In this document: positions 58,490-64,000 of the stretch, piece by piece | Layout of the letters: the number at the start of each line of letters is the position of its first letter | Position numbering within the stretch: position 1 is the first letter of the stretch | Source: an uncultured Bacteroidales bacterium | Lineage (GTDB): Bacteria; Bacteroidota; Bacteroidia; Bacteroidales; Bacteroidaceae | Direction: 5' to 3' | DNA: 64,000 bases | NCBI GenBank assembly: GCA_902774335.1 | Contig: CACYHW010000004.1 | Span: 76,478 to 140,477, forward strand | Program-made: the position numbers and the translations under genes | The notes under the pieces: generated by a model | What the model was told of the DNA's origin: nothing | Databases searched by the model: none | Seen by the model: only the letters and a program-made list of their open reading frames with translations

Positions 58490-59176
58490 ATGAAATTATT
58501 CTCACTCAAAGACAAAAGCGCCATCCTGTTTGACATGGATGGCGTTTTGTATGATTCCATGCCCAACCACTCCAAAGCCTGGAGCGAGGCTATGGCCAAG
58601 TTCGGCATGCACATGACACCTCACGATGTCTATCTGAACGAGGGTGCTACCGGACATGACACGGTGGTCCGTATCAGCCTGCGTGACCGCGGCTATGAGG
58701 CTACCCAGAGTGAGATTGATGATATATACGGATACAAGGCCAGCCTGTTCCGTTCCATGCCCGAGGCACGAATGATGCCCGGAGCCCTTGAGGTGTTCCG
58801 TAAGGCTGCCGCCGCCGGGCTTAAGATACTTATTGTTACCGGATCGGGCCAGAAGAACCTGATTGAGCGTGTGCAGAGGGATTACGAAGGCTTTATAACC
58901 CGTGACCGTATGGTTACCGCCTTCGAGGTAAAGCGCGGCAAACCGTATCCCGATCCCTATCTCAAGGGATTGCAGATTGCAGGTGTTCCTGCCAGCCAGG
59001 CTGTGGTGGTTGAGAATGCTCCGCTTGGAATACGTGCAGCAGTAGCTGCCGGGATTGATACCATAGCAGTTAACACTGGTCCTCTGGAGGATGAGATTCT
59101 GGAGACCGAAGGCCCTGCAGTCCTGCTTCATTCAATGCAGGAGCTTGCGGACAATTTTGAAAAGTTATTTCGATGA
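58490..59176 (+). CDS. HAD hydrolase, beta-phosphoglucomutase/phosphatase-like
   Basis: 228-residue HAD subfamily IA protein. Motif I LFDMDGVLYDSMPNH has the nucleophile and acid/base aspartates. The small helical cap follows. Motif II is LIVTGSG, motif III the lysine in KRGKPYPDPY, and motif IV VVVENAPLGIRAAVAAG. The motif IV acidic position is VVEN rather than VFEDS, seen in some phosphatases. Next to pgi it may act on a sugar phosphate. The 3' end overlaps aroC by 12 bases. Confidence 0.85.
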   Translation: MKLFSLKDKSAILFDMDGVLYDSMPNHSKAWSEAMAKFGMHMTPHDVYLNEGATGHDTVVRISLRDRGYEATQSEIDDIYGYKASLFRSMPEARMMPGALEVFRKAAAAGLKILIVTGSGQKNLIERVQRDYEGFITRDRMVTAFEVKRGKPYPDPYLKGLQIAGVPASQAVVVENAPLGIRAAVAAGIDTIAVNTGPLEDEILETEGPAVLLHSMQELADNFEKLFR

Positions 59177-60235
59177 GATGTATTGGTCCAGCAGGACCAG
59201 AGCCGTGAGTGCCTCCACTACCGGAACGGCACGCGGAACAACGCACGGATCATGACGTCCCTTGGCGGCGATCGTGGTCTCACGACCGTCACGGGTTACG
59301 GTCTGCTGCTCGCGGCCTATTGTGGGGGTGGGCTTGAATGCCACGCGGAATCTTATAGGCTGACCATTACTGATACCTCCCTGAATACCTCCGCTGTGAT
59401 TTGTCTTTGTTGATACCTGCCCGTTTTCCAGACAGAAAGCGTCATTATGCTCCGATCCGCGCTGTGCAGCGGCTGCGAATCCGTCGCCGTACTCGAATGC
59501 CTTGGCTGCGTTTATGCCCAGCATGGCTTTTGCCAGTGAGGCCTCAAGCTTGTCAAATACGGGATTGCCTATACCTGCCGGCAGACCGCGAACTACGCAT
59601 GTCACGCATCCTCCGGTGGAATCCTGTTCCGTGCGGAGTTGCTTGATATACTCCTCCATCTTTGATGCCAGTTCACCGTCCGGGCAACGGACAACGTTGC
59701 TCTCAGCCATGACAGTGGTGTAGTCCATGTCATTTGCGGGGTTGGTGGAGAACGGGCCTATCTGTGATGTGAATGCGGTAATCTGAAGTGAGGGGATGAA
59801 CTTGCGCATCGCCAGGGTGGCAAGTGCACCGGCTACGCATATGGGTGCGGTCACGCGGGCCGATGAGCGTCCGCCGCCGCGCCAGTCGCGTATGCCGTAG
59901 CGCTGTTCCCAGGCATAATCGGCATGTGACGGACGGAACAGGTCCTTGAGTTCATCGTAATCCGATGAGTGCTGGTCGTTGTTGCGTATGATAAAAGCTA
60001 TGGGCGCTCCGGTCGATACACCGTCAAGCAGTCCTGACAGGAACTCAACCTCGTCTTTTTCCTGACGGCCGGTGGTCACGGTGCTCTGTCCGGGACGGCG
60101 GCGCTGCATGCACTCGCGTACATAGTCAAGGTCGACGGTAATCCCTGCGGGGAATCCGTCCAGTACACCACCTATGGCGGGGCCGTGGCTCTCGCCGAAA
60201 GTGGTCAGTGTGAGAAGTTGGCCCAAAGTATTCAT
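59165..60235 (-). CDS. aroC: Chorismate synthase
   Basis: FMN-dependent last step of the shikimate pathway (EPSP to chorismate), 356 residues. Signature segments: TFGESHGPAIGGVLDGFPAGI at the N-terminus, the RPGQSTVTTGRQEKDEVEFLSG region, RPSHADYAWEQRYGIRDWRGGGRSSAR, and GGIQGGISNGQPI. It is transcribed with the FKBP gene upstream, six bases away. Confidence 0.97.
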   Translation of the reverse strand: MNTLGQLLTLTTFGESHGPAIGGVLDGFPAGITVDLDYVRECMQRRRPGQSTVTTGRQEKDEVEFLSGLLDGVSTGAPIAFIIRNNDQHSSDYDELKDLFRPSHADYAWEQRYGIRDWRGGGRSSARVTAPICVAGALATLAMRKFIPSLQITAFTSQIGPFSTNPANDMDYTTVMAESNVVRCPDGELASKMEEYIKQLRTEQDSTGGCVTCVVRGLPAGIGNPVFDKLEASLAKAMLGINAAKAFEYGDGFAAAAQRGSEHNDAFCLENGQVSTKTNHSGGIQGGISNGQPIRFRVAFKPTPTIGREQQTVTRDGRETTIAAKGRHDPCVVPRAVPVVEALTALVLLDQYISSK

Positions 60236-60241
60236 ATCGGA

Positions 60242-60802
60242 TTATTTTTTGCAGTCTCCGTCGCAGTTGCAGTCACCTCCATTGCAGTCGCCGCCGCTGC
60301 AACCACCGCCGCAGCCCTTGCATTTGGGGTGCAGGATGGCGTCAATCTCCTCCTGTGTGGCAGGACGTGACTCCAGAATGACTCCCTTGAAGGTCAGGTC
60401 CTCACCTGCCAGGGGATGGTTCAGGTCAACTGTGACCTTATCGTCGGTAATATTTGTTACAGTAGCGTTGAATGTCTGCTGACCGTCGCTCAGGGGAATG
60501 ATTGCGCCAACCTTTACATGCTCGTCATCGAACACGCCGTCGCGCAGGAAAATACCCTTGTCCAGGTCCAGGACGTTCTCCTTGCTGTATTCTCCGTAAG
60601 CCTGAGCCGAGGGAATCTCGAATTCAAAGCTTTCGCCTACGTTCTTTGAACCTACGTTGTTTTCAAAAAGGTCCAGTGCATAACCTATGCCGGTGATGAA
60701 GGTAAAAGGTCTTTCACGTGTAGCGCTCTCGTACTTGTACAACTTGCCGTCTGCGTCTTTGAGCATCAGGTCATAGGTAAGGCTGATGAATTTCTTTTCC
60801 AT
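60242..60802 (-). CDS. SlyD-like FKBP peptidyl-prolyl isomerase with cysteine-rich tail
   Basis: Cytoplasmic PPIase/chaperone of 186 residues. The split FKBP domain surrounds an insert-in-flap domain (AQAYGEYSKENVLDLDKGIFL ... VTVDLNHPLAGEDLTF, a SlyD hallmark). The C-terminal 29 residues contain eight cysteines with glycines and aspartates (HPKCKGCGGGC...DCNCDGDCKK), a metal-binding tail comparable to the His/Cys-rich tail of E. coli SlyD, which handles nickel. Here the ligands are almost all Cys. It is first in a two-gene operon with aroC. Confidence 0.9.
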   Translation of the reverse strand: MEKKFISLTYDLMLKDADGKLYKYESATRERPFTFITGIGYALDLFENNVGSKNVGESFEFEIPSAQAYGEYSKENVLDLDKGIFLRDGVFDDEHVKVGAIIPLSDGQQTFNATVTNITDDKVTVDLNHPLAGEDLTFKGVILESRPATQEEIDAILHPKCKGCGGGCSGGDCNGGDCNCDGDCKK

Positions 60803-60818
60803 TTCTAATTATTTGCTG

Positions 60819-60826
60819 CAAAGGTA
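60819..60826 (-). promoter_or_regulatory. -7 promoter element for the FKBP-aroC operon
   Basis: Minus-strand TACCTTTG (TAnnTTTG) lies 16 bases before the ATG. The left 29-bp repeat begins 15 bases further upstream and so covers the expected -33 region. Confidence 0.55.
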
Positions 60827-60841
60827 GTGATAATTTGGGAG

Positions 60842-60870
60842 GTGACACAATAGGGACAGTCCCTTCCGTG
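60842..60870 (+). repeat. Left copy of a 29-bp inverted repeat flanking an AT-rich gene
   Basis: It starts GTGACACAATAGGGAC and is identical over 29 bases to the reverse complement of 62378-62406. The core AGGGAC-A-GTCCCT is itself a near-perfect palindrome. Confidence 0.95.
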
Positions 60871-60955
60871 CCATTTTATAGATAATTCTTTGATAATAAG
60901 AAGTATTATATGTAAATTGCGCTCAATTCATTCATTCTTATTATACATTGTTATT

Positions 60956-62377
60956 ATGAAAATGAAAGATTTAAGGCTAAGAGTAGTAATAACATTGCTT
61001 TTGCTGCTGGGACTGCCCATTTGGGCGGCGGGACAGGATCAGATAAGTTCTGAGACCTTCTTTATATATGGTTACGATGCGGACAGTAGGCCTTTCTTTC
61101 CTAAAGCAAGTGATATCTATCCTATTGAAATCTGTTTTTTAGAGGATGAATTTACTGTCAGGAAAAACTCTGATGTCTCAAAAACCGAGTTAGAGTCTTT
61201 GGTGACGAGGTTTCTTCCGGACGCTCAGTTTGAATGGTATAGCCAGGCTGCGGATGTTTGTTCGGTAATATCCGAAAATGAAGAATTAGACAATGTAATT
61301 GATAATCTTTTGGAAAATGATACTGTTCTATTTGCTCAAAAGATGTGGCTCAGGAAAGTATATATGGACCTGATGAGCTTGTATCCGGTAAGCGAGGTCG
61401 CTACTTATGGATTTGATGGTGAGATATGGTTCTCATGTCTAAGTGATGAAAATGCGAATATGGCCTATTCCCTTTTCGAGTCAATAGGTCTCGAGATTTC
61501 TTATCAGAGTGACAATAGATCGGGTTACGTTATGATTCAAAAGGGGATGGATGTTATTAATATCGCAAACCAGTTACATGAATCCGGATACTTCCTTATA
61601 GCCACTCCAAATAAGTTATATCGTGTCCGGGAAATGACCGTTCAAACAGTTGACAAAGAAAGTCTCCCGTATTATTACGACTACAACAGTAAGAAGTACT
61701 TGTATCTCCTTCCTGACAGATTTATGGTGGAAAAAGATGCATTGACCGATAAGACCGCAGTGGAAACTATAATTAAGAATCATCTTGCAGAAGCGGATAT
61801 AATATGGGATAATGATAGTATGTGTACTGTTATTACATATCCCGAGTGTGTAGAAAATGCAATGTACGCTCTTTCTCAAGAGAAATCAGTTCAAAGGTTA
61901 AGTCGGAAATATATTAAAGAAGGTATTTATGAAGAAACTCTAAAGTTAGGGGATAAGAATCCTGATAGTTTTGGTCTTGATGGAAAACTGTTATTATCCT
62001 TTAAGGAGAATATCTCCAAAGATGATAAGGATGGAGTTATTCGGGATTACAATCTCCATTTAGTAGCTAGCGGCAGGTCTTATGGCAAATATGAAGTTCC
62101 AGACAATTTGGATGTGCTAGAAGTCTGCAGAAGTATATTTGAAACGGGTCTGGTAGAGTATTGTGAACCCAATACTACATACATAGCAAAATTGATTTTC
62201 ATTGATCCTTCGTCAAGTACCACAGGCGTTGAACCCATAGAAGATGTAACAGAGGTAAAGACTGAGTATTATAATCTGCTTGGCCGTCGTATGGAAGAGC
62301 CTTCCGGCCTGACAATCAAAGTAACACATTACAGCAACGGAACTATACGTTCTGAAAAGCAATTGTTTGAAAAGTGA
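60956..62377 (+). CDS. AT-rich secreted protein of unknown function, bracketed by inverted repeats
   Basis: 473 residues from the ATG at 60956; a TTG at 60890 is rejected because the ATG gives a normal signal peptide (LRVVITLLLLLGLPIWAAG). The mature part seems to contain two related units (about residues 35-205 and 215-425). Each has a strand-helix-strand stretch that begins near DRFMVEK or EDEFTVRK, and the second ends SIFETGLVEYCEPNTTY, reminiscent of subtilase prodomains (TGLVEYAEPN). No protease domain follows. The tail (YYNLLGRRMEEPSGLTIKV ... IRSEKQLFEK) resembles Bacteroidota sorting-like C-termini. Base composition is clearly more AT-rich than its neighbours, and it is flanked by the 29-bp repeats, both pointing to transfer. 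Confidence 0.7.
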   Translation: MKMKDLRLRVVITLLLLLGLPIWAAGQDQISSETFFIYGYDADSRPFFPKASDIYPIEICFLEDEFTVRKNSDVSKTELESLVTRFLPDAQFEWYSQAADVCSVISENEELDNVIDNLLENDTVLFAQKMWLRKVYMDLMSLYPVSEVATYGFDGEIWFSCLSDENANMAYSLFESIGLEISYQSDNRSGYVMIQKGMDVINIANQLHESGYFLIATPNKLYRVREMTVQTVDKESLPYYYDYNSKKYLYLLPDRFMVEKDALTDKTAVETIIKNHLAEADIIWDNDSMCTVITYPECVENAMYALSQEKSVQRLSRKYIKEGIYEETLKLGDKNPDSFGLDGKLLLSFKENISKDDKDGVIRDYNLHLVASGRSYGKYEVPDNLDVLEVCRSIFETGLVEYCEPNTTYIAKLIFIDPSSSTTGVEPIEDVTEVKTEYYNLLGRRMEEPSGLTIKVTHYSNGTIRSEKQLFEK

Positions 62378-62406
62378 CACGGAAGGGACTGTCCCTATTG
62401 TGTCAC
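62374..62406. repeat. Right copy of the 29-bp inverted repeat, itself palindromic
   Basis: Outer arms GTGACAC (62374-62380) and GTGTCAC (62400-62406) pair perfectly around the inner AGGGAC-T-GTCCCT stem. TGA at 62375-62377 ends the plus-strand gene, and the TGA complement at 62403-62405 ends the minus-strand gene. Confidence 0.95.
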
Positions 62407-64000
62407 TTGAGGTTCTTTAGGGGAACGGCCGATGAGGCGTTGGGCGCGTCGTTGCGGGTTATCAGGGAGATGGTGGGAGCCAGTACACTCACCGAGATGG
62501 GCTCGTGGTTGATTTCGGCCCTGATACCGTTGCCGTACAGGATCATGGGGAAGGGCTTGGCTACCGGCTTGCGGTAGAACACGGTACCCTCCTTTTCGTC
62601 CGATATGCCCCAACCGGGAATGGCGTCAATGATGATGTCGCCCGACCAGGCGGTATTGAGTCCGTTGCGTTTGCGCACAGCCTCCATATCCGGAACCGTG
62701 GACATCAGGTCACGCATAAGCAGCACGCTCCTGATGCCGGTTACCTGTACCAGCAGGTCCACGCAGTTGGCCAGCACCTCGTGCAGTGCCAGCCCCTTAT
62801 CCTCAATAAGGTTGTGGTTAAGGTAGATATGGTTGCGGTGAAAAGTGCGTACCCATGTGCCGCTGCCGTATTTGGCCGACAGGTACAGGCTGAGCAGTGC
62901 GGTTGCGCGCTCCATGCTCACCTGACCGGTGGGGATGCGTGTGCCGCCCAGTTCGGGAGCGGCGTTCTCCACATAACCGGTTGAGGTAAGGAAAAAGAGC
63001 ACATTGTCAAGTCCCACGCTTGCCACAATGGTATTGATAAGCTCCTCGATGTTCTGATCCAGACGGATGTAGATATCCTGCTGCTCGATTGACCACAAGG
63101 TGTTGGGAGTATGCTTGAAGTTACCGGCATAGTAGGTAAGCGTAAGCAGGTCGGGGGTATCGTCCTTACCCAGTTCCATCTCCTGGACCGATGCCAGCGC
63201 CATATTGGTAATACGGTCGTTGGCGAAGGGGGTGGTGCGCCAGTCCCACACGTCGTTCTTGCGCAGCGGGTATGAGAATGGGCGGTAGCGCTCGTGGTCC
63301 GATACGGGTATGTACATGCTTGTAGAGAGTGCGGGGCGCCAGTCCACATTGTCCCATGTGCTGTCATTGCGGGCGTTGACCCATTCGGGCAGGTAACCGT
63401 AATAGGTCGAGGTGCTCCATCGGGCGTCGTTGTCGTTCATCCAGATAACCACGTCGGGGTCGTGTCCCCCGGCCAGAATGGCGGCATCCCTCTCGATGGC
63501 TATGGAGCAAACCTTGGAGCGGTTGGCCGAACCCAGCTTCATCTCATCGGCCAGATTGGTTGCCAGAAGTTTGCCGGGCGACGACATCTCGATGGTGTTG
63601 ATGCCCTTATAGTTGCTGTCGTCTACGGGTGACGAGGGCATGAGAGTCTTGGGGTTCATCCATCGGCCGGCCACAATTCCGTGCTGGAAGGGTGATGCTC
63701 CGGTATGTATTGATGCCACGGCCGATGCACGGTCCATGTCGTCATAGTCAAATGTGGTGTTGGGGCGGTTGTATCCGTCGGTCCACAGGCGTTTCAGTCC
63801 GCCGCTTCTCATGATGGGCAGCATGCGCTCCAGACACTCCTCGTCAAGCTGGTCAACAACTATACCTACCACAAGCTTGGGACTCTTTTCGGGTTTGGCG
63901 TTGAGCGGCACGGAGAGTGACAGTGCAGCCAGTATTATGGTGATGCGCCATGTGTGGGGTTTGGGCTGAGGGTCCTGGCGCAGTCCCGATGTGAGCTGAA
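62403..64000 (-). CDS. Alkaline-phosphatase-fold (PafA-like) secreted protein, metal ligands lost, 5' partial
   Basis: The frame remains open to the right window edge, and an in-frame signal-peptide-like stretch (WRITIILAALSLSVPLNA) lies just before the GTG at 63911, so the true start is outside the window. The N-part matches PafA-type phosphatases: VVGIVVDQLDEE (metal Asp), GGLKRLWTDGY, SAVASIHTGASPFQHGI. The later ligand motifs are altered. Where the family has FLTADHG it has FLTSTGYVE. The histidine of the late HxPL-type motif is replaced (RKPVAKPFPMILYGNGI), and the D-x3-H block reads YAGNFKHTP. The fold is probably kept but two-zinc catalysis is unlikely. The C-terminus (LAPTISLITRNDAPNASS) looks complete. 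Confidence 0.75.
   Translation of the reverse strand, partial: QLTSGLRQDPQPKPHTWRITIILAALSLSVPLNAKPEKSPKLVVGIVVDQLDEECLERMLPIMRSGGLKRLWTDGYNRPNTTFDYDDMDRASAVASIHTGASPFQHGIVAGRWMNPKTLMPSSPVDDSNYKGINTIEMSSPGKLLATNLADEMKLGSANRSKVCSIAIERDAAILAGGHDPDVVIWMNDNDARWSTSTYYGYLPEWVNARNDSTWDNVDWRPALSTSMYIPVSDHERYRPFSYPLRKNDVWDWRTTPFANDRITNMALASVQEMELGKDDTPDLLTLTYYAGNFKHTPNTLWSIEQQDIYIRLDQNIEELINTIVASVGLDNVLFFLTSTGYVENAAPELGGTRIPTGQVSMERATALLSLYLSAKYGSGTWVRTFHRNHIYLNHNLIEDKGLALHEVLANCVDLLVQVTGIRSVLLMRDLMSTVPDMEAVRKRNGLNTAWSGDIIIDAIPGWGISDEKEGTVFYRKPVAKPFPMILYGNGIRAEINHEPISVSVLAPTISLITRNDAPNASSAVPLKNLK

Follow-up and report, generated by a model that had tools for sequence, protein, structure and literature searches.

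Inverted palindromes that enclose a gene for a probably secreted protein in an uncultured Bacteroidales bacterium look like dispersed repeats settled at gene ends

The window is a stretch of 64,000 nucleotides from the genome of an uncultured Bacteroidales bacterium (here G000), and the locus described here contains three minus-strand genes with a fourth, plus-strand gene among them. The minus-strand genes are PHOS (62403–63911), of the type I phosphodiesterase/nucleotide pyrophosphatase family, FKBP (60242–60802), which encodes an FKBP-type peptidyl-prolyl isomerase, and the chorismate synthase gene aroC (59165–60235), which comes after FKBP. The plus-strand gene, SEC (60956–62377), is convergent with PHOS, its right neighbour, divergent from FKBP, its left neighbour, and encodes a probably secreted protein of 473 amino acids. 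SEC is the single ORF enclosed by two 29-bp arms, which a scan of the window finds as exact inverted copies at 60842–60870 (plus strand) and 62378–62406 (minus strand), and its G+C content is 38%, as against 52% for the remaining window; the perfect inverted repeat round one gene and the AT-richness of that gene had both been reported, correctly, by an earlier sequence-only reading. That reading also took the interior to be a cargo gene with no transposase, in agreement with the finding that SEC is the sole long ORF on its strand inside the bracket and that neither Pfam nor NCBIfam, at E ≤ 1, links it to a transposase family.

Each arm makes up nearly all of an imperfect palindrome of 31–33 bp, here called the TGACAC family, so the small palindrome that had been noticed within each copy is present but is not small. 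Much of the window's "inverted repeat" is there because the arms are themselves hairpins. The left palindrome (60842–60874) lies between the divergent FKBP and SEC genes, and its first 29 bases are those of the right palindrome (62374–62406), which has the opposite orientation; over the palindrome length the two differ by 1 of 31 bases. The outer TGA of the right palindrome is the PHOS stop codon (62403–62405, minus strand) and its inner TGA is the SEC stop codon (62375–62377, plus strand). The units end in TGAC, as do most of the seed copies of the family, and the arms have the orientation of the close-set doublets described below, with inner ends (TTTT and AAAA) like those of many such doublets. 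Three of the four arm strands are predicted to form DNA hairpins with energies between −6.3 and −9.3 kcal/mol, values that 1–4 of 200 shuffles reach, and the plus strand of the left arm is predicted to fold at just −3.9 kcal/mol, which is reached by 32 of 200 shuffles. A 16-mer from the palindrome has three matches in the window at up to 3 mismatches, including the inner half of the right palindrome, and none of 100 window shuffles gave three or more. No target-site duplication is evident by eye at the printed window junctions. Inside the bracket, the region upstream of SEC (60875–60955, plus strand) has no counterpart, by eye, in the PHOS–FKBP gaps of congeners. Outside it, the FKBP upstream region (60803–60841, minus strand, CTCCCAAA..ACTACCTTTGCA) begins right past the left palindrome and is similar in several congeners, and the left palindrome is, within a few bases, the border of new and conserved DNA on the FKBP side.

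The SEC protein has a hydrophobic N-terminus (window 60956–61040; by eye), and several congener matches cover just its C-terminal ~57 residues (window 62200–62377), in frames that are otherwise different. These last ~57 residues may be sorting-domain-like, and together with the hydrophobic N-terminus the recurring C-terminal stretch suggests secretion with a sorting domain. No Pfam family matches SEC above its cut-off (there are two sub-threshold matches), NCBIfam gives no match, and the single-sequence structure prediction has a mean pLDDT of 38.5. Matches to SEC at E ≤ 1e-5 occur in 11 of 36 congeners, and never on the contig that carries the FKBP gene of the genome in question. A full-length homologue with 46% identity comes after a gene with an SprA_N domain in G016, and in G007 the homologous C-terminal part (49%) is included in a longer ORF, next to which an ORF of 2410 residues looks like the same SprA_N-domain gene. 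A search of G000 gives SEC as the single match and no second copy; the sprA locus of G000 (G000:C3, L272 8369–8686) carries an ORF of 105 residues that is 32% identical to the beginning of the G016 homologue. The homologues measured in G016 and G007, at this other locus, have 37% G+C, so the AT-richness of SEC is a family trait and not a sign of recent foreign origin, which was rejected as the explanation of its low G+C. No hairpins of the window's family were found in the printed surroundings of six SEC homologues of congeners.

FKBP is present in all 37 genomes of the genus (G000 included), and the gene order PHOS–FKBP–aroC is that of most relatives examined. Thirty FKBP loci were fetched, one the window's own and 29 from congeners that are other species, not strains. 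PHOS lies directly before FKBP, across a gap of 25–262 bp, in 27 of the 29; the two unjudged loci are one with a run of N in the gap and one with no PHOS found in the stretch. A SEC match is absent from all 29 fetched loci, and the 27 judged ones provide the empty site that the sequence-only reading had proposed to look for. The same adjacency without SEC is found in 21 named Bacteroidales assemblies, partly the same genomes as the congener set (these are the first 21 of 42 loci; three further tested loci have no PHOS match). A three-protein tree of the window and 20 of the 21, one having been dropped for a missing AroC, places L052 as the sister of G000 with a support of 0.87. The gap sequence of L052 is that of G008 and contains an inverted doublet of another hairpin family, and by eye a hairpin or doublet is present in 8 of the 27 PHOS–FKBP gaps, the sister genome's among them. 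The doublets of another hairpin family in the gaps of G008 and G016 may or may not go back to one ancestral insertion with the window arms, from which they differ in position by several bases on both sides (by eye). The PHOS protein of G000 has its end where those of the closer congeners have theirs, with the palindrome's TGA now serving as its stop codon. The accessory gene SEC is a lineage-specific insertion into the PHOS–FKBP junction, which is a hairpin hot spot.

The palindrome family, with the consensus TGACACAATAGGGACAGTCCCTTCTGTGTCA, is dispersed both in G000 and in the genus, the outcome of the search for further copies that the sequence-only reading had recommended. With up to 1 mismatch allowed, the 16-mer is matched 12 times in the whole genome of G000 (each half of a full palindrome counts separately), as against 0 for the reversed pattern; a 15-mer at up to 1 mismatch is present in 25 of the 37 genus genomes (G000 included), with 2 control hits in total. 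Since the hairpin family is dispersed and SEC is absent from the relatives' site, neither of the two results that had been named as contrary to the sequence-only reading, a 29-mer that occurs nowhere else and vertical inheritance of the gene at this locus, was obtained. With a weight matrix, 195 units were located in 104 stretches, 1.04 Mb in total, and 1 on the reversed sequence, at a threshold that admits cousins of the window's family (a stricter score is used for the second pair count below). The stretches were picked round listed family matches of 10 among the 25 matching genomes, to which some Y1 and SEC-homologue loci from other genomes were added, and the counts describe these stretches, not whole genomes. 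Among neighbouring units less than 150 bp apart, 38 of 43 are inward doublets with the AATAGGG halves outside, and the 35 close doublets that were printed have loops of up to 62 bp. These close inward pairs are REPIN-like doublets; no close-set doublet of the window's family was seen in the stretches of G000 that were read.

The outer TGA is the stop codon of the neighbouring gene in 51 of the 125 units whose outer arm has no more than 1 mismatch, in 8 of these at both ends, and the corresponding baseline for other non-coding TGAs in the same stretches is 150 of 2302 (6.5%), with ORFs taken from a simple longest-ORF script and not from a gene finder. When gene ends are counted instead, 59 fall on the outer TGA and 19 on the TAG within AATAGGG, and 65 lie 4–150 bp before the unit. 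The skew of 59 to 19 is improbable (p 6e-6) if genes read into the palindrome equally in either frame, which suggests insertion at or after TGA stops and not random truncation. The SUI1 gene is an example: its stop codon in G000 is a palindrome TGA, and its end is within 1 residue of that at 27 of 29 orthologous loci, the exceptions being one locus that differs by 2 residues and one with a 19-residue extension. This placement suggests how a mobile repeat can settle between packed genes without breaking them. GTAG REPs are known to supply the stop codons of flanking genes, and as outlined in the account of those repeats in PMC3733652 they resemble the window family in that the repeat terminus is the flanking gene's stop and that both abut the ends of convergent genes; GTAG REPs supply TAG, whereas the window family supplies TGA, counted here against a baseline.

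Y1_Tnp matches are present in 23 of the 37 genus genomes. In contig C50 of the congener G015, a Y1 gene lies between two units of the window family (463–493 and 1331–1361), so that a Y1-type gene with the same ends, another of the proposed searches, was found. Among the Y1 loci examined it is the one locus where a Y1 gene is flanked by the exact window family; at several others the hairpins are different, and at some the script showed none. The same contig (L170, 5.5 kb) also contains two DUF5128 lipoprotein genes, and these and the Y1 gene are interleaved with window-family palindromes. G000 has one Y1_Tnp match, at C19, amid TGATACAATTGGGG-type hairpins of a different family, and the 18-kb stretch with this sole Y1 gene found in G000 (G000:C19:18000–36000, L018) has five matches to the palindrome TGATACAATTGGGGCCTGACCCCAATTGTATCA and variants. 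G000's own Y1 gene was rejected as the mover because its hairpins belong to another family, and no Y1 gene with a window-family hairpin was detected in the G000 draft (29 contigs, 87% complete). NHVH and YIHQNP motifs are present in the six Y1 proteins that were printed. For the Y1 proteins of G015 and G000, NCBIfam gives a single family, NF047646 (REP-associated tyrosine transposase), with scores of 61.7 and 55.8, respectively, against a cut-off of 80. The C-terminus of the G015 protein matches HTH_23 (E 0.006) and HTH_28 (E 0.01), both below the Pfam cut-offs, and the G000 protein matches only HTH_5 (E 0.2).

The closest known kind for the window arms is the TIRYT/RAYT-associated palindromes. 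In the TIRYT/TIRtron elements, as characterized in the relevant sections of Di Nocera et al. (2013, PMC3733652), a Y1 gene is flanked by inverted repeats, some of them self-complementary, as in G015, and the repeats are dispersed as singles and dimers, as in the window family. Their core, GGGGWSAS, is fitted or nearly fitted here by GGGGACAG and AGGGACAG, and their C-terminal HTH has a possible counterpart in the sub-cut-off HTH_23/HTH_28 stretch of the G015 protein. The window differs from those elements in that its two copies enclose a host gene instead of a Y1 gene, and in that a cognate Y1 gene was not found in G000. The YIHQNP motif agrees with TIRYT and with the TnpA-Y1 subclass 2.1 of Quentin et al. 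(2018, PMC6006769), and the Y1 proteins here are probably members of that subclass. In the treatment of subclass 2.1 genes in that paper no REP-like sequences were found by them, whereas the Y1 gene of G015 is flanked by hairpins. REPINs or BIMEs with their RAYTs, in the portrayal of their general features by Bertels and Rainey (2011, PMC3116915), are also short inverted palindrome pairs, dispersed and mostly intergenic, and their Y1 transposase is presumed to be active in trans, as it would be here. The matches of the G015 and G000 Y1 proteins to NF047646 point the same way, below cut-off as they are, but the GTAG (GT[AG]G) foot is absent here, the ends being TGAC, and REPIN palindromes are close together, whereas the window arms fit in orientation and are 1.5 kb apart with a gene between them. 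A composite transposon or classical IS has an inner transposase and a target-site duplication, neither of which is seen at this bracket, the duplication being judged by eye at the printed junctions. In insertion sequences of the IS200/IS605 group a Y1 HUH transposase acts on hairpins; the bracket here has no transposase inside, and both of its arms are copies, in opposite orientation, of a single palindrome that is scattered as short singles and doublets. A Y1 transposase linked to palindromes is what the Y1 genes here share with that group, as sketched in PMC6006769.

We favour, at a probability of roughly 0.6, the reading that the arms are dispersed Y1/HUH-linked palindromes of the TIRYT/RAYT type at gene borders and that SEC arrived otherwise. 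In this reading there is nothing exceptional about the window arms within their TIRYT-type palindrome family, whose copies would be set at gene borders by a Y1 transposase that acts in trans on hairpins of single-stranded DNA, and SEC itself would enter the junction by another route; alternatively, SEC may have ended up inside a doublet already in the gap. The insertions would persist because reading frames stay intact and because a hairpin, possibly a two-way terminator, is left between convergent genes. It counts against this view that the position of the left palindrome at the border of new and conserved DNA exceeds chance placement beside SEC, that the arms have doublet orientation, and that G000 showed neither a close-set doublet of the family in the stretches read nor a Y1 gene with this hairpin in its incomplete draft. 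In this one gut genus, known here from draft assemblies, TGA-ended palindromes are tied to a congener's Y1 gene that they flank, to a hot spot of insertion and to an empty site. The bracket in the window is real, yet it looks like repeats settling at gene ends and is not proof of a new gene-carrying mobile element, a warning that perfect inverted repeats round one gene of odd composition need not mean a cassette.

The strongest competitor, unlikely as we judge it, is that the palindromes are the ends of one element with SEC as its passenger, a unit that a TIRYT-type Y1 transposase would move in trans by way of a hairpin-ended single strand. The new DNA does start and stop at palindromes, the arms are oriented as in a doublet with 1 of 31 bases different and doublet-like inner ends, G015 possesses a Y1 gene flanked by these hairpins, and G015:C50 has two further inward pairs with one called ORF each and arms 0 and 1 bases apart. 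An inward bias is nevertheless lacking at gene-sized distances: at 500–3000 bp there are 8 inward, 11 outward and 16 same-way pairs among 35 clear ones, 10 of the 45 pairs being of ambiguous orientation and left out (nearly symmetric palindromes can score in either direction), and with the stricter score at 150–3500 bp there are 5 inward, 6 outward and 6 same-way pairs of 17. Neither count has an excess of inward pairs over independent placement, so the other cargo between copies that the sequence-only reading had proposed to look for did not appear beyond that expectation. The loops of the 35 printed close doublets measure at most 62 bp, against 1.5 kb in the window, and we know of no report of a RAYT or TIRYT moving gene-sized DNA, nor does any title listed by a literature search describe one. 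The arms are also no more alike than unrelated copies of G000, where 8 of 55 copy pairs, the window pair included, differ at no more than 1 of 31 bases and two copies at unrelated places are identical. Arm identity was therefore rejected as proof of a cassette. Three of the five high-scoring gene-sized inward pairs (the window's and the two of G015:C50) have arms no more than 1 base apart, the comparison rate being 5.2% of 784 same-genome pairs in ten genomes. The six SEC homologues without a nearby hairpin of the window's family, already mentioned, stand on the opposing side. It is doubtful, then, that TIRYT-type doublets can carry a whole host gene in the loop and be moved by Y1 in trans, as transposase-free, hairpin-ended cassettes that land precisely on stop codons and of which the window and the two G015:C50 pairs would be the examples; that palindrome, SEC and palindrome moved as one element is possible at comparably low odds.

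A bracket similar to that of the window, in G002, bears on the same point. There a DUF5128 lipoprotein gene lies between two nearly symmetric palindromes that are 1 base apart and were scored as a same-way pair, next to the gene X402. A DUF5128 homologue adjoins X402 in 6 of 30 loci (G002 included): G009, G016 and G010 have it at 62–73% identity with no palindrome at that junction (the G010 contig holds just part of it), G023 (69%) has another hairpin at the junction, and in G008 (46%) the homologue runs in the opposite direction with a hairpin-like stretch at the junction. By eye, no window-family palindrome is present on the 5' sides of the G009 and G016 DUF5128 genes as printed. In six genomes (G004, G006, G015, G021, G022 and G026) X402 is followed directly by a GH95 gene, with exactly one TGATAC palindrome between the two convergent genes in four, and the remaining 18 X402 loci, G000's included, have neither a DUF5128 nor a GH95 gene within the stretch. 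Three congeners carry the DUF5128 gene beside X402 with no palindrome at that junction, and therefore the G002 bracket probably formed round a resident gene; some of the compared genomes share only one neighbour. Of the mobile cassette moved in trans that the sequence-only reading had envisaged, the dispersed Y1-linked hairpin family and the absence of SEC from the site in relatives stand, and movement as a unit finds no support in the pair counts or in the G002 bracket.

It is distinctly improbable that SEC, once flanked by palindromes at another place, was exchanged into a resident doublet when the short repeats recombined. Many copies in G000 are close to one another (0–3 mismatches in 25 of 55 pairs), the same gap holds other-family doublets in G008 and G016, and the sprA locus of G000 has its short SEC-like ORF where G016 and G007 carry the gene, but G000 has no second copy of SEC, and some 30 bp is short for homologous recombination. 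That a metagenome assembler joined SEC into the gap through the repeated palindromes is very improbable: the draft state and completeness of G000 and the position of both joins in repeated sequence would allow it, but SEC relatives and palindromes of this family are both native to the genus, and repeats of ~33 bp are shorter than the longest k-mers usually used.

We note that in G016 a variant palindrome family (TAACACATTAGGGACGGTTCC) is seemingly far more abundant: the family pattern, with up to 3 mismatches allowed, is matched 119 times. In an island common to G023 and G022 (L179 and L237), palindromes separate a RhuM-like gene, a small macro-like gene and two paralogous lipoprotein genes (named by eye).
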